From Geoglobus sp. (GTDB lineage Archaea > Halobacteriota > Archaeoglobi > Archaeoglobales > Archaeoglobaceae), in assembly GCA_027016965.1 (NCBI GenBank), contig JALURI010000208.1:1-8837 (forward strand): 8,837 nucleotides of DNA, written 5' to 3'. Positions 394 to 8,837 of this stretch are shown in pieces. Under the pieces are notes generated by a model. It did not search any database. It had not been told where the DNA came from and saw only the letters and a program-made list of their open reading frames with translations. Numbering within the stretch: position 1 is the first letter of the stretch; every line of letters starts with the position of its first letter. Position numbers and translations under genes: made by a program.

Positions 394-401
394 AAAGGTG
401 A
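394..401 (+). promoter_or_regulatory. Ribosome binding site that fixes the acyl-CoA dehydrogenase start
   Basis: AAAGGTGA lies five bases before ATG 407 and complements the archaeal 16S rRNA tail. The in-frame GTG at 398 falls inside this site and therefore cannot use it, which favours 407 as the start. Confidence 0.7.
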
Positions 402-406
402 ATTTT

Positions 407-1564
407 ATGGACTTCAAACTCACAAAGGAGCAGGAGGAAATAAAAAAAGCAGCAAGAGAATTTGCTGAAAGGGAATTCACCCCGGAGCTTATTCAGAAGT
501 ATGATGGGGGAGAAGAATACCCAAGGGATGTCGTGAAAATGGCAAGAGATTTGGGGTTTTCAACAATAAAAATCCCTGAGGAGTATGGTGGAATGGGTCT
601 GAGCCTTTTTGAGGAGGTTCTTGTCACCGAGGAATTTTACAGCGTAAATCCAGGCATGGCAAACGCATGCCTGAGCTCAACATTTGGAACAGAGCTCATA
701 ACTTTGTTTGGCAATGAGGAGCAGAAGGAGAAATACCTCAGATGGATCACGGAAAGGCATGGAATCAGTGCCATGGCAAATACAGAGCCTGAAGCGGGAA
801 GCGATGCAGCTGGAATCAAAACGAAGATAGTCAGGGAAGGGGATGAGTGGGCCATAAACGGAACAAAAACTCTGATCACCAACGGAAGTGTGTGCGACTT
901 CGTTCTTGTGACGGGGAGGAGCTATCAGGGGAAGAAGAGGCACCATGGCATAACCTTTGCAATAGTTGAAAGCAAAATGAAGGGATTCAAGGCTAAAAAG
1001 ATAAGAAACAAGCTGGGAATGAGGGCAAGCGATACAGCAGAGATCTATTTTAAGGATGTCAGAGTTCCTGAAGAGAATATTCTCGGAGACCCCGGAAAGG
1101 GGTTTTACTATCTTATGGAGTTCTTCAACCACACGAGACCGAGAGTTGCAGCTCAGGCTGTTGGAATTGCAAGGGGAGCATTTGAGCTCACTTTGAAGTA
1201 TGTTAAGGAAAGAAAACAGTTTGGAATGCCCATAGCTAATTTCCAGCATACCCAGTTTAAAATTGCTGAGATGGCAACAAGGATACACGCTGCCAGACTT
1301 CTCGCCTACAATGCAGCATGGCAGTGCAGCATTGGAGAGAGGAGAATAGAACTCTCATCAATGGCAAAGTGGTATGCTGGGGAGACTGCTGTTTATGTTG
1401 CGGACTGGGCACTGCAGCTGCATGGAGGTTACGGTTACATAGGAGACTATCCTGCAGAGAGATTTTACAGGGATGCAAAGCTGATGGAGATATACGAGGG
1501 CACGAAGGAGATTCAGAAGCTGATTATAGCTAAGCATTATTTGAAAGGCTCTTTGAAAAGATAA
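407..1564 (+). CDS. Acyl-CoA dehydrogenase (FAD-dependent, short/medium-chain type)
   Basis: This cytoplasmic flavoprotein of 385 residues would catalyse alpha,beta-dehydrogenation of an acyl-CoA to the trans-2-enoyl-CoA, passing electrons to an electron-transfer flavoprotein. The length matches the family. The N-terminal helical domain covers about 1-115. The FAD/substrate signature TEPEAGSD is at 126-133 and the middle beta domain follows to about 225. The C-terminal helical domain carries the second signature at 337-358 (QLHGGYGY, then PAERFYRDAK). The catalytic base is Glu364 in IYEGT, the position used by short- and medium-chain enzymes, so the protein should be active. Chain-length preference cannot be read from sequence; a glutaryl- or branched-acyl-CoA substrate is possible. 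ATG 407 is preferred over GTG 398 because the ribosome binding site overlaps the latter. It is the first gene of a three-gene beta-oxidation operon. Confidence 0.95.
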   Translation: MDFKLTKEQEEIKKAAREFAEREFTPELIQKYDGGEEYPRDVVKMARDLGFSTIKIPEEYGGMGLSLFEEVLVTEEFYSVNPGMANACLSSTFGTELITLFGNEEQKEKYLRWITERHGISAMANTEPEAGSDAAGIKTKIVREGDEWAINGTKTLITNGSVCDFVLVTGRSYQGKKRHHGITFAIVESKMKGFKAKKIRNKLGMRASDTAEIYFKDVRVPEENILGDPGKGFYYLMEFFNHTRPRVAAQAVGIARGAFELTLKYVKERKQFGMPIANFQHTQFKIAEMATRIHAARLLAYNAAWQCSIGERRIELSSMAKWYAGETAVYVADWALQLHGGYGYIGDYPAERFYRDAKLMEIYEGTKEIQKLIIAKHYLKGSLKR

Positions 1565-1568
1565 TCAT

Positions 1569-1577
1569 GGAGGGGGA
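1569..1577 (+). promoter_or_regulatory. Ribosome binding site that decides the 3-hydroxyacyl-CoA dehydrogenase start
   Basis: GGAGGGGGA precedes ATGs at 1579 and 1582. The GGAGG core is eight bases from 1582, the same spacing as AGG to ATG in the gene before. The earlier in-frame ATG at 1567 has no ribosome binding site upstream and overlaps this one. Confidence 0.6.
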
Positions 1578-1581
1578 GATG

Positions 1582-2502
1582 ATGGAGATTGAAATGATCG
1601 GTGTTGTTGGATTTGGAGTCATGGGAACCCAGATAGCCCAGTTCTTTGCCCAGAAGGGCTTTGAGGTGATTGCCATTGATGTTGATGAGAGAAAACTTGA
1701 GATTGGGTTGAAGAGCATAGCAGAAGGAAGATTTGGACTGAAAAATCTGGTTGAGAGAGGTAAAATCAGTCAGGATGAGATGGAAGAAATTCTGAGCAGA
1801 ATAAAAACACACAGAAATTTTGAAGAGCTGAAAGACTGTGATCTTGTAATTGAGGCTGTATTTGAGGACTTGAACCTCAAACTGGATGTTTTGAACAGAG
1901 TTGACAGCATTGTAAGCGATGCGGTAATTGGTTCCAATACCTCCACAATAAGCATAACAAAACTGTCGAGGGCTGTTAGAAATCCAGAGAACTTTCTGGG
2001 AATTCACTTCTTCAATCCTGCCCACATTCAAAAACTGGTTGAGCTTGTCAGGGGATTGCTGACAGACGATGAACTTCTCCAGTCGATGAGGGAGCTATTC
2101 ATCAACCTCGAAAAGGTTCCGATTCTTGTAAACGACTCTCCTGGGTTTGCGACAAGCAGACTTGGACTGGTTCTCGGGAGGGAGGCAATTCTGATGGTTC
2201 AGGAAGGTGTTGCAACACCACAGGACATAGACATTGGAATGATGCTTGGATATGGTTATGCTATGGGCCCTCTTGAGACTGGAGATCTGGTTGGACTTGA
2301 CACAAGATTGAATGCATTGAAAGCCATGCATGAGGCAACTGGCGAGGAAAGATGGGCACCTCCAAAACTGCTTGTTCAGCTTGTTGATGCAGGCTATCTT
2401 GGAGATCCAGAGATAAAACCTGAAAGCAAAGGAGGAATTTACGAGTTCTTCGGGCAGGAAAAAGCCAGCCATGTCTTGAGAAAAATGGACATTAGGAGGT
2501 GA
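1582..2502 (+). CDS. 3-hydroxyacyl-CoA dehydrogenase (NAD-binding, HBD type)
   Basis: A single-function enzyme of 306 residues that would oxidise L-3-hydroxyacyl-CoA to 3-ketoacyl-CoA with NAD+. The Rossmann fold begins with GFGVMG at 10-15, and Asp33 ends the second strand, as expected for NAD preference. SNTSTISI at 118-125 and HFFNPA at 142-147 provide the conserved Ser and catalytic His142; Glu154 is the probable dyad partner. The C-terminal helical domain starts at NDSPGFATSR (184-193). Where the human enzyme has Asn208 this one has Ser192; my recollection is that this variant is common in one prokaryotic subfamily. The C-terminal GYLG..SKGGIYEF segment is longer than the usual GRKSGRGFY form. 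ATG 1582 is chosen by ribosome-binding-site spacing, with 1567, 1579 and 1594 as alternatives. The gap to the previous stop is 17 nt, and its own TGA lies inside the next gene's ribosome binding site. Confidence 0.93.
   Translation: MEIEMIGVVGFGVMGTQIAQFFAQKGFEVIAIDVDERKLEIGLKSIAEGRFGLKNLVERGKISQDEMEEILSRIKTHRNFEELKDCDLVIEAVFEDLNLKLDVLNRVDSIVSDAVIGSNTSTISITKLSRAVRNPENFLGIHFFNPAHIQKLVELVRGLLTDDELLQSMRELFINLEKVPILVNDSPGFATSRLGLVLGREAILMVQEGVATPQDIDIGMMLGYGYAMGPLETGDLVGLDTRLNALKAMHEATGEERWAPPKLLVQLVDAGYLGDPEIKPESKGGIYEFFGQEKASHVLRKMDIRR
2494..2502 (+). promoter_or_regulatory. Ribosome binding site overlapping a stop codon
   Basis: AGGAGGTGA is a near-perfect match to the archaeal anti-Shine-Dalgarno sequence. 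Its last three bases are the TGA of the upstream dehydrogenase. It supports the GTG start at 2507, four bases on, and suggests translational coupling. Confidence 0.8.
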
Positions 2503-2506
2503 AATT

Positions 2507-3277
2507 GTGGAGAGAATTGTGCTTGAATATCCTGAGAGGGATATTGCTCTGATCGCATTGAACCGTCCTGACAAACTCAACGCCCTTGACACGAAAACAA
2601 GGATGGAGATAAGCGATGCCATTGATGAAATTGAGGAGAGAGCGAGAGTTCTGATAATAACGGGAAAGGGAAAGGCTTTTGCAGCAGGGGCAGATATAAA
2701 CGAACTATCCAGAAGGACGCCATTTGAGTACATAAAGCTTTCAAAGTATGGAACATGGCTGAACAACAGAATAGAAAACCTTGAAATTCCTGTTATCGCT
2801 GGAATAAATGGATACGCTCTGGGCGGAGGTTGCGAGCTTGTGATGGCTTGTGACATAAGGATAGCAAGTGAAAAGGCGAGATTTGGACAGCCTGAGCTCA
2901 ATCTCGGCATAATGCCAGGTGTTGGAGCAACTCAGAGGCTTCCAAGACTTGTTGGTCTTGGAATGGCAAAGAAACTCATCTTTACGGGAGAGATAATAGA
3001 TGCTCAGGAGGCTTTGAGAATAGGACTCGTTGAGGAGGTTGTGGAGCATGAAAGGCTGATGGAGAGGTGCTTTGAAATTGCGAGAAAGATTGCAGAGAAG
3101 CCACCTCTTGCCATAAAAATGGTGAAGAGAGCCTTAAATGCCACAAGAACCATGGGTCTTGAGGATGGATTGAGGTATGAGGTTGCTCTGGCAAGCCTTC
3201 TCTTCTCAACCGAGGATGCAAAAGAGGGTCTGAGAGCGTTTCTGGAGAAGAGGGAGCCTGAGTTCAAGGGAAAATAG
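2507..3277 (+). CDS. Enoyl-CoA hydratase (crotonase family)
   Basis: A 256-residue cytoplasmic enzyme that would add water to trans-2-enoyl-CoA to give 3-hydroxyacyl-CoA, the step between the two dehydrogenases encoded upstream. The length fits the crotonase family. The oxyanion-hole and CoA-binding segment KAFAAGADI is at 56-64. The active-site loop GYALGGGCEL is at 102-111 and GQPELNLGIMPGVGATQRL at 127-145. Both catalytic acids of true hydratases are present, Glu110 and Glu130. This argues for a hydratase rather than an isomerase or other crotonase relative, although a related dehydratase role (for example on 3-hydroxypropionyl-CoA) cannot be excluded. The C-terminal helical region ends in a lysine-rich tail. 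The GTG start has a very strong ribosome binding site. It is the last gene of the operon; its TAG stop lies within the terminator hairpin. Confidence 0.94.
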   Translation: MERIVLEYPERDIALIALNRPDKLNALDTKTRMEISDAIDEIEERARVLIITGKGKAFAAGADINELSRRTPFEYIKLSKYGTWLNNRIENLEIPVIAGINGYALGGGCELVMACDIRIASEKARFGQPELNLGIMPGVGATQRLPRLVGLGMAKKLIFTGEIIDAQEALRIGLVEEVVEHERLMERCFEIARKIAEKPPLAIKMVKRALNATRTMGLEDGLRYEVALASLLFSTEDAKEGLRAFLEKREPEFKGK

Positions 3278-3294
3278 TATCTCCACTATTTTTT
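3271..3294. terminator. Bidirectional terminator-like hairpin between convergent operons
   Basis: AAAATAGT (3271-3278) and ACTATTTT (3285-3292) form a perfect 8-bp inverted repeat with a 6-nt loop. On the plus strand the second arm runs into T6 at 3289-3294. The TAG stop of the plus-strand hydratase (3275-3277) and the TAG stop of the minus-strand lipoprotein (3288-3286) each fall within one arm. The stem is AT-rich and weak; archaeal termination relies mainly on T-runs, so the oligo-T may matter more than the hairpin. Confidence 0.55.
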
Positions 3295-4323
3295 GCTGTA
3301 GTCATGGATTATTTCTGAAAGCTCCTCAAGTGCATAGACAAGCCTGTATGATGGCCTTGAAATTATGTCTGAATCAATCATGTAAACCCTGCCCTCTTTG
3401 ACTGCCTTAACATCTTTGAGCTCGCTGATTGCCCACCTGTAGAGTATATCATCCTCACCACCCATCCCTGTACCGCTGTTAACCACAATTATGTCAGGAT
3501 TTCTTGCAAGAAAATCCTCTATGCTGACTATTTTCCAGCCTTCCAGGTCTTCAAAGGCATTCTCACCACCAGCAATTTCTATCAGCTCATCAATGAATGT
3601 ATCTTTTCCGCTCACCCACACTGGATCGTGCCAGAGGACATGGACAATCTTGGGCTTTGAGCTGATGTTTGAGGCTTTTCTTTTCGCCTCCTCTATCTTG
3701 ACCTCCATCATCTCGACAAGCTTTGTGGCATTCTCCTCCTTTCCGGTTATTCTTCCAAGCAGCATTATGTTATCCATAACATCGCTGAGATTTTTCGGAT
3801 TGAGTGCCACAACCTTAATGCCGTATTCTCTGAGAATCTCAATTGTTTCCTTCCCGTTTCCGTAGGCAGCAACAACCAGATCCGGATTAAGGGCAAGAAC
3901 TCTCTCTATGTTTACGGTGGAATATCCTCCAATCTTGGTTTTCCTTATCGCCTCTTCTGGATAGTTACAATAATCTGTAACGCCAACAACTCTGTTTCCA
4001 AGTCCCAGCGCAAAGAGAATTTCGGTGTTGCTTGGAGCCAGAGAAACTATTCTTTTTGGGGTTTCATTGAAAACAACCTCATATCCAAAATCATCAACAA
4101 TTTTGATTTTCTGGGTACTGTTCTCACTTTCTCTATTGGGTTTGGCTGGGCTTTCATTTAACCTCTCATGCCATTTTTCAGGAGATGAGTAGGAAGTGGT
4201 TTTGCCCTCACCTGAGGGTATTGATTGATTCCCAGACTTATGCTGTTCATTCAAGGTATTTACACATCCCAGTGCAATTGCAGAAACCAGAAAAATTGAA
4301 ATAAGAAAGAATTCCTTTTTCAT
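3286..4323 (-). CDS. BtuF-like periplasmic-binding lipoprotein of an ABC transporter (probable corrinoid binding)
   Basis: A 345-residue membrane-anchored solute receptor that would deliver a ligand to an ABC importer. The N-terminus MKKEFFLISI continues into a hydrophobic segment and a lipobox ending IALGC, with Cys20 the lipidated residue. Residues 21-72 form a Ser/Asn/Lys/Glu-rich linker. From about 73 to 345 there is a Fe/B12 periplasmic-binding fold (Peripla_BP_2): RIVSLAPSNTEILFALG at 91-107 and the following GVTDYCNYPEEA are close in pattern to BtuF. VLALNPDLVV at 142-151 and FLARNPDIIVV at 271-281 end each lobe's core. A siderophore or heme receptor is the main alternative. ATG 4323 follows a GGAGG core by five bases and overlaps the previous TGA (TGATG); GTG 4335 would extend it by four residues. 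No permease or ATPase gene follows, because the next gene is convergent. Confidence 0.88.
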   Translation of the reverse strand: MKKEFFLISIFLVSAIALGCVNTLNEQHKSGNQSIPSGEGKTTSYSSPEKWHERLNESPAKPNRESENSTQKIKIVDDFGYEVVFNETPKRIVSLAPSNTEILFALGLGNRVVGVTDYCNYPEEAIRKTKIGGYSTVNIERVLALNPDLVVAAYGNGKETIEILREYGIKVVALNPKNLSDVMDNIMLLGRITGKEENATKLVEMMEVKIEEAKRKASNISSKPKIVHVLWHDPVWVSGKDTFIDELIEIAGGENAFEDLEGWKIVSIEDFLARNPDIIVVNSGTGMGGEDDILYRWAISELKDVKAVKEGRVYMIDSDIISRPSYRLVYALEELSEIIHDYSKK

Positions 4324-4333
4324 CATCTCCTCC
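4323..4333 (-). promoter_or_regulatory. TGATG stop-start overlap and ribosome binding site before the BtuF-like gene
   Basis: On the minus strand a GGAGG core (4333-4329) precedes ATGATG. The TGA of the upstream gene (4325-4323) shares its A with ATG 4323. Ribosomes ending the surface protein could restart directly on the lipoprotein. Confidence 0.6.
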
Positions 4334-6584
4334 ACCGGAATGCAAGTATAAGTGCCAGCATCGCTCCAAGAATTTCAAATCCCGGAATTCCTGACGGCTT
4401 TTCAGAAGGGGCTCTGGTCTCAGGCTTCTCATCTGTTCTTGCTTCCTCAGTCACCACAGCTTTGGGCGTCTTTGTGAGTTCTGGAGTTGGTGTTGGCAGT
4501 TGTGTCTTTGATGGAGCTGGCTTTTCGGTTAAATCGGTCAGATTCACCTCTCCGTAAATGTACTCTGGCTTTACTGGATTTGGCTTTCCGAGCAGAGCCA
4601 TTATTGCAGAGACAGTCATGTATCCCGGATTGGATGTCTGAACAGATGTGTACCTGAAGTACCCCTCCTCAGCCTGGAGACTGAGCAGATGATCGACGAC
4701 GCTTATGTTGTTTTTCTTCCACTCCCTTGGATTTTCTCCTGCAGCAACTAATGCCTGAATTGCCCATGCATCGCTGGCAGCGTTTGATGAAGAATTGCCA
4801 AAATACCTGAACCCTCCATCTTCGTTCTGTCCAGTTTTCAGATAATCCAAGGCTCTTTGTATAACCTCAGAGTCCTTTGACTCTCCTGCATAGATCAAAG
4901 CCTGTATTGCTGCTGCAGTATCATCGTAATCGCTCTTCTCTCCAGCAGCCCAGGCAAATCCACCATCCTCGTTCTGCTGAGCCTTAAGCCATTCAGCAGA
5001 TTTGGTCACATTCTCTCCAGATGCCTTTAATGCCATGATTCCCCATATCGTTGTGTATATGAAGTCCCCTATCTGTCCATCCTCCTTGACCTTACCCTTC
5101 AGCATTGAAACCAAATCAATTCCACTGAAGTTCCTTGGATTTTCATCTGCTGCAGTTATAGCAAGAATCGTTCTTGCAATGTCTGCAGTGCCCATCTTTC
5201 CGAGAGATGAGTTCAGGTTGTTTCTGAGGTAGTCAACCGGAGAGTTACCATTCCTGATCCATCTATGGGGATCTTGCTTTGATGCGGCGAGAGCCATTAT
5301 TGCCCATGATGTTTTGGAGATGCTGCTCTCCTCACCCGGATTTGCAAATCCACCATCATCATTCTGAATTGTTTTCAGCCACTGCAGGGCTTTGATTATC
5401 GGCTCATCTGTGACATTAAGCGGGAAATCACTCCACTTTGAAACTATGGCAAAGGTGCTGGAGCTCGAAACTTCAGCAGAGAAGTGGTAGTAACCCCTGT
5501 CCTCCCACAAATACTCTGTTGGAAGTTCCACCCATTTACCTGTGAATTTCATCAGCACAACACTATCTCTATTCACACTTTTATCGGTTCTGAAGACTAT
5601 TTCAAAATATTCTGCACCTCTAACCTCAAGATTGAATGTGCTCAGGATCTTTCCGTAGATTGCTCCGATTTCATCTTCCTCTCCCACCTCTATTTGCAGG
5701 GTATCATTTTCTGCTCTGGCTTTTAGCGAAATCAGTGAAAACATAGCTGAAATGTTCTCTGGGAAATACACAACCACCTCCTCTCCAATCTCTGCAGACA
5801 CATTCTTAACAAATATATGTTTGCTGATCTCACCTGTTAGATCAGTTTGATTGTCTTCAGCTCCCATGGCTCCACCTGCCGGTATCTGCTTTTCAGCGAA
5901 CTTCACGTACACTCTCAAAATCATGGGAGATGTTTCAGGTGTTTCATCCATGCTTCTTGAGAAGTACCAAACAACCTCATCGCCCTCATTCACGATGTAC
6001 TCATGAGCTCCAACCATCGGTGTGTTTCCGTTCACCTGGTACATCCAGCCTGACATTTCCCCATCACTTTTCTCGCACTTGCTAGCTATGCATGACACAA
6101 ATGGTCCCCAGTCTGTTTCCTTTACGGTAAAGCTGAAACCACTCTGCTGAGATGCTGCTTTAAGAGCGCCCATTGCAGTTCTCCACTCAACTGTGTAGGT
6201 TTTGCCAGAGGAGGCTATTACGGTGAATGAACCTTCAGGCAGGTACACCGTTCCTGAATAGTAGACGCTGAATCTTTCACCACCAGTCTCTTCAGTTTCC
6301 CTTTCTGTTATCTGGATGCTCCTCTTCACGATTCCCTCATCTGTTCTTACTTCAATGTTCAGATTTCCGGTAATGTGAGGTATAAACCTGACCTCCTTTC
6401 CGTATGTGAAAACGGGTGTTCCGTTGTTCATCCTGAATATCACGTATGAATCTCTGTCCAAGGTAACCGTGACAGGCTCATTCACATAACCACCGCTGAC
6501 ATCCACAACTATGCCAAGGGATGGGACTGGTGCAAGGAGGAAAAGGATAATGGAAAACAGAAGAAAAGCAGCAGGCTTTTTCAT
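4323..6584 (-). CDS. Surface-anchored DUF4430 / prenyltransferase-like repeat protein with PGF-CTERM signal
   Basis: A 753-residue exported protein. The signal peptide covers about 1-24. A small beta region is followed by a DUF4430 (transcobalamin C-terminal-like) domain at about 120-210, with the hallmark SGWMYQVNG at 178-186 and NEGDEVVWYFS at 199-209. C165 and C170 could form a disulfide. Residues 255-382 match the PGF-pre-PGF pattern (GKWVELPTEY, then STFAIV). Residues 395-668 hold six alpha-hairpin repeats of the squalene-cyclase/prenyltransferase type, several with QNxDGGF (407-413, 537-543, 586-592), enough for one alpha6/alpha6 barrel. A Pro/Thr/Glu linker leads to GIPGFE at 732-737, a hydrophobic stretch and RWRR: a PGF-CTERM signal for archaeosortase. 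There are twelve N-X-S/T sequons. No terpene-cyclase DXDD motif is seen, so enzymatic activity is unlikely. A ligand-capture role, possibly for corrinoids, is inferred from resemblance to intrinsic factor and the BtuF-like neighbour. Confidence 0.9.
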   Translation of the reverse strand: MKKPAAFLLFSIILFLLAPVPSLGIVVDVSGGYVNEPVTVTLDRDSYVIFRMNNGTPVFTYGKEVRFIPHITGNLNIEVRTDEGIVKRSIQITERETEETGGERFSVYYSGTVYLPEGSFTVIASSGKTYTVEWRTAMGALKAASQQSGFSFTVKETDWGPFVSCIASKCEKSDGEMSGWMYQVNGNTPMVGAHEYIVNEGDEVVWYFSRSMDETPETSPMILRVYVKFAEKQIPAGGAMGAEDNQTDLTGEISKHIFVKNVSAEIGEEVVVYFPENISAMFSLISLKARAENDTLQIEVGEEDEIGAIYGKILSTFNLEVRGAEYFEIVFRTDKSVNRDSVVLMKFTGKWVELPTEYLWEDRGYYHFSAEVSSSSTFAIVSKWSDFPLNVTDEPIIKALQWLKTIQNDDGGFANPGEESSISKTSWAIMALAASKQDPHRWIRNGNSPVDYLRNNLNSSLGKMGTADIARTILAITAADENPRNFSGIDLVSMLKGKVKEDGQIGDFIYTTIWGIMALKASGENVTKSAEWLKAQQNEDGGFAWAAGEKSDYDDTAAAIQALIYAGESKDSEVIQRALDYLKTGQNEDGGFRYFGNSSSNAASDAWAIQALVAAGENPREWKKNNISVVDHLLSLQAEEGYFRYTSVQTSNPGYMTVSAIMALLGKPNPVKPEYIYGEVNLTDLTEKPAPSKTQLPTPTPELTKTPKAVVTEEARTDEKPETRAPSEKPSGIPGFEILGAMLALILAFRWRR

Positions 6585-6595
6585 CACCTCACCTC
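6584..6595 (-). promoter_or_regulatory. TGATG stop-start overlap and ribosome binding site before the surface-protein gene
   Basis: The minus strand reads GAGGTGA (6595-6589) four bases before ATG 6584. The TGA of the propeller gene (6586-6584) overlaps that ATG by one base. The in-frame GTG at 6587 lies too close to the ribosome binding site to be the preferred start. Confidence 0.65.
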
Positions 6596-8434
6596 ACAGA
6601 TGACACTTCCATATATGTCAATTACCCTTTCGGGGTAGTCTTCGAGTCTGTAAATTCCTGCATACAGGCTGTAGCTCCCTGTCTGAGTCTGCTGGGGGAC
6701 GGGTATGAGCACGGGTATCCTTGCATCTTCACCTGCTGCAAGTCTTACCACCGACACTCCTGCAATGCTATCCCCGTTCTCGTTAGTTCCGCTGACAACA
6801 ACAGCATACCATCCATCAATCATTGCCTGAACATCAACGTAACCTGTTGCATGTGAACCTCTGCTTCCATTGCTGATGTTAAGTTCTGCAATCCTTGCCT
6901 CTCCTGCTGTCCTCACGTGAATTTTTATGATGTATTGTGATTCTTCTGGGCTGCTTGGCTCCCATGTTGTGCTGTTGTAATATCCGAAATAGAAAATAAG
7001 CTCGTCACCATCTTTAAGTATGTAATCCCCTGCTCCTACTGAGGGGGATGGCTCATCAGGGTAATTAACCCAGTACATCCAGCCACTCAATCCCTCAGGT
7101 TTTATGCCTGCTATGCTATCAACGTAAAGTCCCCAAGAAGTGTTAACAATTTCAACGGTAAAGTTTCCGGCCATAGCGGCTTTCCAGAGGGCTGCAAGGG
7201 CTGAGAATCCGTCAACTTCTGCAGTACCCCCATCTTTCAGTGTTATTTCAATCTTTTCTCTGCTCAGCTCCACACTGCCTTTCCAGAGTGCCTGTTTTTT
7301 GCCAAAGGCGTAGAGATTTCCATCATCTGCTCCAATGTAAAGATTCCCATTGTAAATGAACGGAGAGGACATGATGTTATAGTATGCTCCTTCCGGAGGA
7401 TTGAGGGAGTGAGTCCAGAGAAGAGAACCATTCATGGCATCTACAGCATAAACAGTACCGTTTGGCACGTTTGTGGCAAAGTAAACAGCTCCATCAGCAA
7501 CTGCAGGAGAGTTGTAAATCCTTCCGTTGGCACTGAATTCCCATAATTTTTCCCCTGTAGAGGCATTGAAACAGTAAAGCTTTCCGTCTGCTGATCCAAT
7601 GTAAACCCTACCATAAGCTAATGCAGGCGAGGAAATTGTTCCGTTGAAAGGCACACTCCATGTCTCGTTTCCATCAAGACTTAGTCCGTACAGCCTTTTT
7701 TCGGTTGCAAAAAATATCATCTCATTTCCGACTGTAGGTGTGTTCATTATTTTGCTGTCAGCTGGAAATGTCCAGATCACATTTCCACCTTCGTCAACAG
7801 CATACAGCATGTTTGAGGATGAATTTCCAGCAAAGAATATCATCCCACTGTGGGCTGATGGAGAGGAATACTGGCTTATTCTCTTTCCCGTTGTTATGTT
7901 CCAGAGCTCATTTCCGTTCAGATCAAGGGCATGCAGCTTTCCATCTGAGAACGTTGTGATGTAGAGTGTTCCATTGTAAACGAGAGGTGAAGAAGTTATT
8001 CCCCACCACTCAGGATTCATTTCAAGCTGTTTTTCCCAGATAATCTGTCCTGTGGTTGCGTTGACAGCATATAGCTTTCCGGCAAGACTTCCAATGAAAA
8101 CCGTTCCACCGTAAACTGCAGGTGTTGATGCACCTGTGATGTTCCCATTAACCCACACAATCTCTCCTGTTTCTGCATCAATGCTGTAAAGCCCTGGATT
8201 CCAGCTTCCCCAGCCATACCAGTTGGAAACATAGATCTTTCCGCCCCACACAACAGGTGAACCATCTACAAGTGCCGTCAGATTTGCTTTCCATAGAAGA
8301 TCGCTCCTGTAAGGACCGATGTCTGTGAAATTTCCTGTTCTCTCTGCATCAAACTGAAAGGTAGACGCAGATGAAGCCTGGATCAGTGCAATCAGAGATA
8401 CAATCACCACAACCATTCTGGATTTTGTCAACAT
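6584..8434 (-). CDS. Secreted PQQ-type beta-propeller protein with C-terminal DUF4430 domain
   Basis: A 616-residue exported protein. The Sec signal peptide spans about 1-24 (hydrophobic core MVVVIVSLIALI, small residues ASSAS before cleavage). Residues 25-384 contain eight PQQ-like blades with the pattern SPxVxxGxxYxG..GxLYAxxxxTGxxxW, starting near 59, 104, 149, 191, 232, 269, 309 and 357. The N-terminal strand (W48) probably closes the ring with the last blade. A DUF4430 domain follows at about 390-485, with SGWMYWVN at 450-457 and KDGDELIFYFG at 474-484. A C-terminal beta-rich domain covers about 500-616. Seventeen N-X-S/T sequons suggest heavy surface glycosylation. There is no membrane anchor or PGF-CTERM. 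The proteins I compare it with are structural or binding propellers of the BamB type; nothing seen proves PQQ enzyme activity. It is first in the operon, and its TGA overlaps the next ATG by one base. ATG 8434 and GTG 8437 are both plausible starts; TTG 8479 would put charged residues before the signal peptide. Confidence 0.88.
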   Translation of the reverse strand: MLTKSRMVVVIVSLIALIQASSASTFQFDAERTGNFTDIGPYRSDLLWKANLTALVDGSPVVWGGKIYVSNWYGWGSWNPGLYSIDAETGEIVWVNGNITGASTPAVYGGTVFIGSLAGKLYAVNATTGQIIWEKQLEMNPEWWGITSSPLVYNGTLYITTFSDGKLHALDLNGNELWNITTGKRISQYSSPSAHSGMIFFAGNSSSNMLYAVDEGGNVIWTFPADSKIMNTPTVGNEMIFFATEKRLYGLSLDGNETWSVPFNGTISSPALAYGRVYIGSADGKLYCFNASTGEKLWEFSANGRIYNSPAVADGAVYFATNVPNGTVYAVDAMNGSLLWTHSLNPPEGAYYNIMSSPFIYNGNLYIGADDGNLYAFGKKQALWKGSVELSREKIEITLKDGGTAEVDGFSALAALWKAAMAGNFTVEIVNTSWGLYVDSIAGIKPEGLSGWMYWVNYPDEPSPSVGAGDYILKDGDELIFYFGYYNSTTWEPSSPEESQYIIKIHVRTAGEARIAELNISNGSRGSHATGYVDVQAMIDGWYAVVVSGTNENGDSIAGVSVVRLAAGEDARIPVLIPVPQQTQTGSYSLYAGIYRLEDYPERVIDIYGSVICEVR

Positions 8435-8450: not shown

Positions 8451-8479
8451 AAACTTTCTTGATATTTCTTGACAGGCAA

Positions 8480-8620: not shown

Positions 8621-8837
8621 TATAGTGTTCGACATAACCAACTTAACCAAAACTCAAAAACTTTCTAATCCACTTCTCAACAAAACTCCTCTTCCGAGTT
8701 AACTGGTAAAAGCTATCCGAAATTACTTCCTTTAGCTCTTCCAATGTTTTAATGAGAAGAGGAGACAGCACCCTCTTTATACCTCTCCAGATCTGCTCAA
8801 TAGGGTTCAAGTCAGGAGAATAGGGAGGCAGATAAAC
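8621..8837. mobile_element. IS630-family insertion sequence, one end (partial)
   Basis: The transposase stop is followed within about 20 bases by TATAGTGTTCGACATAACC (plus strand, 8621-8639), which has the position and form expected of an IS630 terminal inverted repeat next to a duplicated TA target. The boundary near 8621-8625 is a guess, because the matching end lies outside the window. The element end is about 190 bases upstream of the propeller-gene start. Confidence 0.6.
8643..8837 (-). CDS. IS630/Tc1-mariner-family transposase, C-terminal part (cut by the window edge)
   Basis: The last 64 codons of a gene that enters from the right edge and ends at TAA (8645-8643). The fragment opens with VYLPPYSPDLNPIEQIWRG, the hallmark of DDE transposases of the IS630 family; the Glu in NPIE is the third acidic residue of the catalytic triad that cuts and joins DNA. 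The tail is basic and helical (KRSFVEKWIRKFLSF), as is usual after this motif. No frameshift or stop is visible in this part, but whether the whole gene is intact cannot be judged here. It is transcribed towards the surface-protein operon. Confidence 0.9.
   Translation of the reverse strand, partial: VYLPPYSPDLNPIEQIWRGIKRVLSPLLIKTLEELKEVISDSFYQLTRKRSFVEKWIRKFLSFG

Follow-up and report, generated by a model that had tools for sequence, protein, structure and literature searches.

What does an archaeal surface operon do that sets the two folds of human vitamin B12 carriers beside a substrate-binding lipoprotein? The question is raised by three minus-strand genes in an 8,837-nucleotide stretch of Geoglobus sp. 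DNA (GCA_027016965.1, contig JALURI010000208.1; hereafter the window). They encode a secreted β-propeller protein with a DUF4430 domain (gene 1), an anchored protein in which DUF4430 precedes an α6/α6 toroid (gene 2) and a BtuF-like lipoprotein (gene 3). The original prediction, made from the DNA alone, was a system that captures corrinoids at the cell surface and hands them to the lipoprotein. We consider this the best reading of the operon, with a probability of roughly 0.8. Under this model, corrinoids (cobamides or cobinamide) would be caught at the cell surface by two proteins, the propeller/DUF4430 protein of gene 1 and the anchored DUF4430/toroid protein of gene 2, the latter of which would hand them to the neighboring lipoprotein; together the three would form the outer half of a corrinoid importer. 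The lipoprotein would feed a BtuC–BtuD transporter, whose genes lie elsewhere in genomes of the Geoglobus type, and corrinoids that are incomplete or non-native would then be cut by CbiZ so that they can be rebuilt. What we infer from the evidence below is which ligand is bound, in which pocket (perhaps one shared by toroid and DUF4430), in which direction it is transferred, and that the window and its relatives have a common role.

The operon is real and conserved. All three open reading frames (ORFs) start with ATG (gene 1 at 8434, its longest frame beginning at 8479; gene 2 at 6584; gene 3 at 4326). Because stop and start codons overlap at the gene junctions (TGATG, ATGATG) and GGAGG precedes gene 3, the genes are likely to be translationally coupled. 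Counting the window, 27 Archaeoglobi loci were compared, and 22 of them keep the order propeller, DUF4430-toroid, lipoprotein, so the arrangement is not due to chance. Three of the five exceptions are cut by a contig edge (L019, L044, L051); L016 begins within gene 1 and has no lipoprotein match in the gene after the toroid, and L041 has an extra gene between toroid and lipoprotein. The nearest named relatives of the window proteins are from Geoglobus and Archaeoglobus, and the toroid shares 88% identity with its counterpart in one Geoglobus draft genome.

The coordinates and domains given earlier hold, with ORFs, Pfam and NCBIfam matches and the model of gene 2 in agreement (Table 1). The AlphaFold2 model (80-row alignment; mean predicted local distance difference test score 88.3, predicted template modeling score 0.63) has 12 helices in residues 394–664, the six hairpins expected of the α6/α6 barrel that had been proposed. 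Pfam, NCBIfam and the model also bear out the DUF4430-first order and the extra PGF-pre-PGF-like domain. A helix at 137–148 and strands at 152–157, 160–166 and then 179–184 in the model were set against the definition in Burroughs et al. 2007 (PMC1796856). A profile built from 41 DUF4430 domains (A4) matched Transcobalamin-1 (3.9e-5) and Transcobalamin-2 (4.0e-5). The lipoprotein assignment is upheld by the Peripla_BP_2 match of gene 3 and by vitamin B12-binding proteins (5ysc, 5m34 and others) among its PDB matches. For gene 1, the second DUF4430 was confirmed, but only this domain had been named, and a propeller and a C-terminal β domain are present as well. A Foldseek search with the propeller placed the designed propellers 6tji, 6tjh and 6tjg at the top, followed by BamB and YxaL, with tetrathionate hydrolase also among the best 50. 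BtuG was considered as an identity for gene 1, which encodes a propeller, but is not claimed, as the fold matches are BamB/PQQ-type propellers. One homologue of 1001 residues (P0095) carries a propeller, two DUF4430-like stretches and a toroid in one chain, resembling a fusion of genes 1 and 2.

Table 1. Features of the operon and its surroundings in the window.
Feature	Position	Strand	Evidence or remark
Gene 1: secreted PQQ/BamB-type β-propeller, DUF4430, C-terminal β domain	6584..8434	-	ORF, Pfam, model, fold search
Gene 1 β-propeller	7256..8332 (approximate, from model)	-	PQQ_2 5.4e-47; Foldseek
Gene 1 DUF4430 (transcobalamin-like SLBB domain)	6986..7204	-	PF14478 36.9 bits, cut-off 23.8; 5.0e-9
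Gene 1 C-terminal β domain, no family assigned	6590..6931	-	Model
Gene 2: DUF4430, PGF-pre-PGF-like domain, α6/α6 toroid, PGF-CTERM-like tail; 753 residues	4323..6584	-	ORF, Pfam, NCBIfam, model
Gene 2 DUF4430	5958..6179	-	PF14478 3.7e-16, over cut-off
PGF-pre-PGF-like β domain between DUF4430 and toroid	5436..5819 (model limits; profile match 5442-5585)	-	TIGR04213 35.9 bits, cut-off 28
α6/α6 toroid, 12 helices	4572..5405	-	Profile searches, model
DYDDT (DxDDT motif), gene 2 residues 552-556	4917..4931	-	Invariant columns D552, D554, D555, T556 in alignments A1, A2
PGF-CTERM-like anchor: PGF, hydrophobic stretch, RR	4326..4394	-	PGF_CTERM 12.4 bits, below cut-off 24.5; sequence
Gene 3: Peripla_BP_2 lipoprotein, BtuF-like	3286..4326	-	PF01497 4.2e-42, 144.6 bits, cut-off 27.5
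Gene 3 lipobox ALGC	Cys codon 4264-4266	-	Sequence
DDE_3-domain transposase gene, 3' end only	8643-8837	-	Directly upstream of gene 1, runs past window end
Acyl-CoA dehydrogenase, 3-hydroxyacyl-CoA dehydrogenase and enoyl-CoA hydratase genes in a row	398-3277	+	Convergent with operon

Evidence for the ligand comes from genome context, assessed in relatives of the window genome. Loci were taken from a single genome scan (best 80 of 122 relatives), and representatives of the archaeal neighbor families were identified with Pfam and NCBIfam. Neighbor counts are from mechanical longest-ORF maps, which can miss neighbors (two plus-strand genes are hidden in L061). Within six ORFs of the toroid gene, a FecCD-cluster permease was present in 25 of 50 archaeal loci (window included), an ATP-binding cassette (ABC) ATPase of the same cluster in 18 and CbiZ in 8, while toroid and Peripla_BP_2 are fused in one chain in 16. 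Eight Archaeoglobi loci have the order permease, ATPase, CbiZ, propeller, toroid, lipoprotein. Among 59 genomes of the class Archaeoglobi, DUF4430 was found in 37 (36 over the family cut-off) and CbiZ in 43; both occurred in 32, DUF4430 alone in 5, CbiZ alone in 11 and neither in 11 (Fisher p 0.005, ignoring kinship). In 14 of the 32 genomes with both, including G047 with its below-cut-off DUF4430, CbiZ and DUF4430 were no more than 6 kb apart; for genomes of 1.8 Mb the expected number is about 0.2. Because close relatives are not independent, the effect size outweighs the p-value. CbiD, a further corrinoid gene, served as a control; it was searched for in 32 genomes, 25 of them among the 59 Archaeoglobi. 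In these 25, CbiD was never on the DUF4430 contig in the 16 genomes with both, and CbiZ was near in 8 of 21. The genome-wide association with corrinoid genes that had been predicted was thus tested and found, in the form of CbiZ linkage and BtuC-like and BtuD-like neighbors.

Several archaeal loci have features of their own. The ATPase at L010:6307-7530 and other archaeal ATPases (405–443 residues) are BtuD-like but extended at the C terminus by about 150 residues, a stretch covered by none of the listed Pfam matches; for the L010 protein, the corrinoid ATPase PRK09536 is the top NCBIfam model. In the methanogen loci L029, L031 and L032, the opposite strand near a toroid-lipoprotein fusion carries genes for a CbiQ-like protein and a long ABC ATPase, and BtuFCD-type genes and genes of the energy-coupling factor (ECF) type may stand side by side there. 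A 1151-residue frame in L029 (11767-15222) matches toroid, Peripla_BP_2 and propeller, and is thus a triple fusion. L043, a contig filed as Candidatus Nitrosotalea, contains propeller, DUF4430, toroid and lipoprotein genes, through misbinning or transfer. Relatives of the enoyl-CoA hydratase gene of the window are present in the Geoglobus loci L001, L002 and L004.

In the Geoglobus genome G004, the transporter is unlinked. This genome has a permease, an ATPase and CbiZ away from the surface operon, with no adjoining binding protein (L081: FecCD at 2196-3179; ATPase ending at 3924, recognized by reading its translation; CbiZ at 3921-4475). Of its two Peripla_BP_2 genes, one adjoins another FecCD gene and the second lies in the surface operon. 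Six draft genomes were searched, and in G001, G003 and G017 the only Peripla_BP_2 gene is that of the operon. By elimination, the operon lipoprotein is likely to be BtuF.

The bacterial relatives lie in mostly clostridial operons that encode a toroid-DUF4430 protein, a DUF4430 protein, CbiQ, CbiO, a second toroid and an ECF S component. A cobalamin riboswitch was found upstream in 17 of the 26 bacterial loci tested (7/7, 7/7 and 3/12 in successive batches), a count that leaves out L059, L076, L078, L079 and L080. In 14 of these loci it immediately precedes the first operon gene; in the other three, CbiZ (L045), one ORF (L073) or several ORFs (L067) intervene. The remaining nine loci (L049, L050, L052, L055, L058, L061, L064, L069 and L071) yielded none, and the idea of a riboswitch on every bacterial operon was therefore cut back. 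All nine start within the operon or at its margin: seven of them inside a toroid-DUF4430 gene or a later gene, or no more than about 240 bases from CbiQ; L071 starts with a fragment just ahead of its DUF4430 gene, and in L061 the tblastn match to the upstream genes extends to contig base 393. Two cobalamin riboswitches lie ahead of the operon in L048, L053, L068 and L077. Toroid-DUF4430 proteins also occur in drafts named Falkowbacteria and Parcubacteria (L079, L080).

We considered the possibility that genes 1 and 2 encode generic surface or adhesion proteins that merely adjoin btuF. Propellers, PGF-pre-PGF domains and β domains are frequent in archaeal surface proteins. However, the conserved gene order in Archaeoglobi, the archaeal toroid-lipoprotein fusions and the bacterial riboswitches make this most improbable.

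A number of observations weigh against a corrinoid role. No BtuC, BtuD or CbiZ was detected in the window by Pfam scan, and no cobalamin riboswitch in the window or in seven further archaeal loci (0/8). The bacterial riboswitch is parted from the operon by other ORFs in L067 and L073, and the L067 match is cut. Gene 3 scored 132.3 bits against the BtuF equivalog NF002894, short of the cut-off of 234, and its best PDB match is 4m7o ("Iron-binding protein"), ahead of the B12-binding proteins. For the L003 ATPase, F420-0 and heme ABC ATPase models outrank the corrinoid model. Five genomes have DUF4430 without CbiZ and 11 the converse, the drafts being incomplete, and, since related genomes are not independent, the figure of 14 in 32 is too high as a measure of independent events. 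Finally, CbiD was found in 20 of the 32 genomes searched for it; many of these archaea thus seem able to make corrinoids, and their need to scavenge is not obvious.

Such points could speak for another ligand, such as heme, siderophore-bound iron, or a nickel or other tetrapyrrole. Burroughs et al. 2007 (PMC1796856) leave this open for archaea, stating that B12 synthesis is frequent among the archaea in which these domains occur and that another metabolite might be scavenged there; our CbiD search likewise points to many B12 makers, and the lipoprotein and transporter families serve heme and iron too. On the other hand, the CbiZ linkage, the bacterial riboswitches and the match between DUF4430 and transcobalamin all point to corrinoids, and we regard another ligand as very unlikely. 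Salvage by corrinoid makers fits CbiZ, which serves cobinamide salvage in archaea (2004 paper cited in PMC8305020). The present data favor corrinoids as the ligand in archaea too, despite the frequency of CbiD.

Corrinoid uptake as originally proposed is thus supported by CbiZ, the BtuC-like and BtuD-like neighbors, the lipoprotein fusions and the bacterial riboswitches, but the kinship of the barrel had to be corrected. Both folds of intrinsic factor and transcobalamin are present as predicted; the toroid, however, matches the Pfam families SQHop_cyclase_C (7.4e-18) and Prenyltrans (1e-13) and keeps a DxDDT motif. D-x-D-D-T/S is present in 72 of 73 toroids of the DxDDT class, the bacterial toroid-DUF4430 proteins (cluster C6) and the L078 proteins having been left out beforehand, and SDxDDT in 119 of 120 listed homologues. 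HMMER aligns the motif, at the level of sequence, with the DxDD of drimenyl diphosphate synthase, an enzyme for which D303 variants have been deposited. PF01122 Cobalamin_bind scored 19.1 bits on the window toroid alone, under the curated cut-off of 25, and matched 5 of 40 toroids at E up to 0.1. Given the aligned motif and this score, the archaeal barrel has the fold of intrinsic factor yet is nearer to class II terpene cyclases in sequence and structure. Cyclase models on gene 2 fall far below their curated cut-offs (TIGR01787, 60.4 vs 322.7; TIGR01507, 45.5 vs 431.1). Transcobalamin and intrinsic factor were absent among the best 60 of 68 toroid-profile matches (E up to 10) and among the 46 matches listed for the bacterial toroid-DUF4430 profile, both of which are weak evidence.

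The bacterial toroid-DUF4430 proteins have the animal domain order, and only 3 of the 19 with toroid matches contain a DxDDT-type string anywhere. Since the DxDDT toroid of methanogen fusions and bacterial loci sits in a chain without DUF4430, any pairing of toroid and DUF4430 can be between separate proteins. The archaeal DxDDT toroids form one group relative to the bacterial ones (tree support 98/89), and a single transfer may have taken place between the two.

The DxDDT motif is the one unexplained feature of the operon; its role may be to bind side chains of the corrinoid or to carry out chemistry. In the latter case, the toroid could be an enzyme outside the cell, descended from class II terpene cyclases, that uses its aspartates as a general acid on captured corrinoid before hand-off, for example in lower-ligand release or base-off conversion, and would process the ligand as well as hold it. 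We know of no corrinoid reaction of this kind, and the aspartates could merely bind amide side chains. The L064 toroid and the three toroids of L078 have no motif, though they occur in similar clusters; the chain is secreted, its neighborhood is that of corrinoids, and no isoprenoid gene was noted adjoining. Enzymatic action seems unlikely. A wider reading, which we hold quite unlikely, is that prokaryotes capture corrinoids with a class II terpene cyclase that was repurposed, is secreted and retains its acid motif; this toroid would condition the corrinoid chemically (e.g., by protonating the lower ligand to give the base-off form) before hand-off to the binding protein, and animal intrinsic factor and transcobalamin would descend from, or parallel, such an enzyme-derived handler that lost the motif.

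The genome context bears on the doubt expressed in 2007, since it suggests that the transcobalamin-like proteins of archaea handle corrinoids, also where the organism can make its own. A three-protein route of capture, hand-off and import is proposed, in which natural fusions suggest the contact partners, and B12 carriers are connected with terpene cyclases through the acid motif conserved in B12-linked toroids. Being probably heat-stable, the proteins of these archaea would suit structural work on the origin of B12 carriers.

Archaeal corrinoid salvage is known from CbiZ and from BtuCDF of Halobacterium. The archaeal operons share with it the BtuF-like lipoprotein, the BtuC and BtuD relatives and CbiZ, and differ by the addition of two DUF4430 surface proteins and, in G004, by a binding protein split from btuCD-cbiZ. 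In Bacteroides, the surface lipoproteins BtuG and BtuH capture B12, and BtuG is a propeller; the propeller here is of the BamB/PQQ type and carries DUF4430, while the DUF4465 of BtuH is a different family. Human intrinsic factor and transcobalamin likewise combine an α6/α6 barrel with a transcobalamin-type β domain, whereas gene 2 has the reverse order, an inserted β domain, a toroid below the Cobalamin_bind cut-off and the DxDDT motif. The closest structures to the toroid in the search are class II terpene cyclases (squalene-hopene cyclase, drimenyl diphosphate synthase and MstE), which have DxDD at the aligned position; unlike them, gene 2 is secreted, has a single toroid and a corrinoid neighborhood, and scores far below the cyclase cut-offs. 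In the open-access literature we found no study of a B12 role of DUF4430 in archaea or bacteria, and only Burroughs et al. 2007 (PMC1796856) to treat these proteins. That paper already publishes surface B12 capture in outline: it describes toroids joined to DUF4430 (as SLBB) in both domain orders, fusion to a β-propeller, SLBB paralogues paired within an operon, and CbiO/CbiQ operons, names an Archaeoglobus protein and proposes B12 scavenging. The surface DUF4430/SLBB and α/α toroid, the propeller fusion and the operon with paralogous SLBB genes are common to both accounts, but the partners there are CbiO and CbiQ. The archaeal operons described here are instead linked with genes for BtuCD-like proteins, CbiZ and a BtuF-like lipoprotein, and the present account adds the DxDDT motif.

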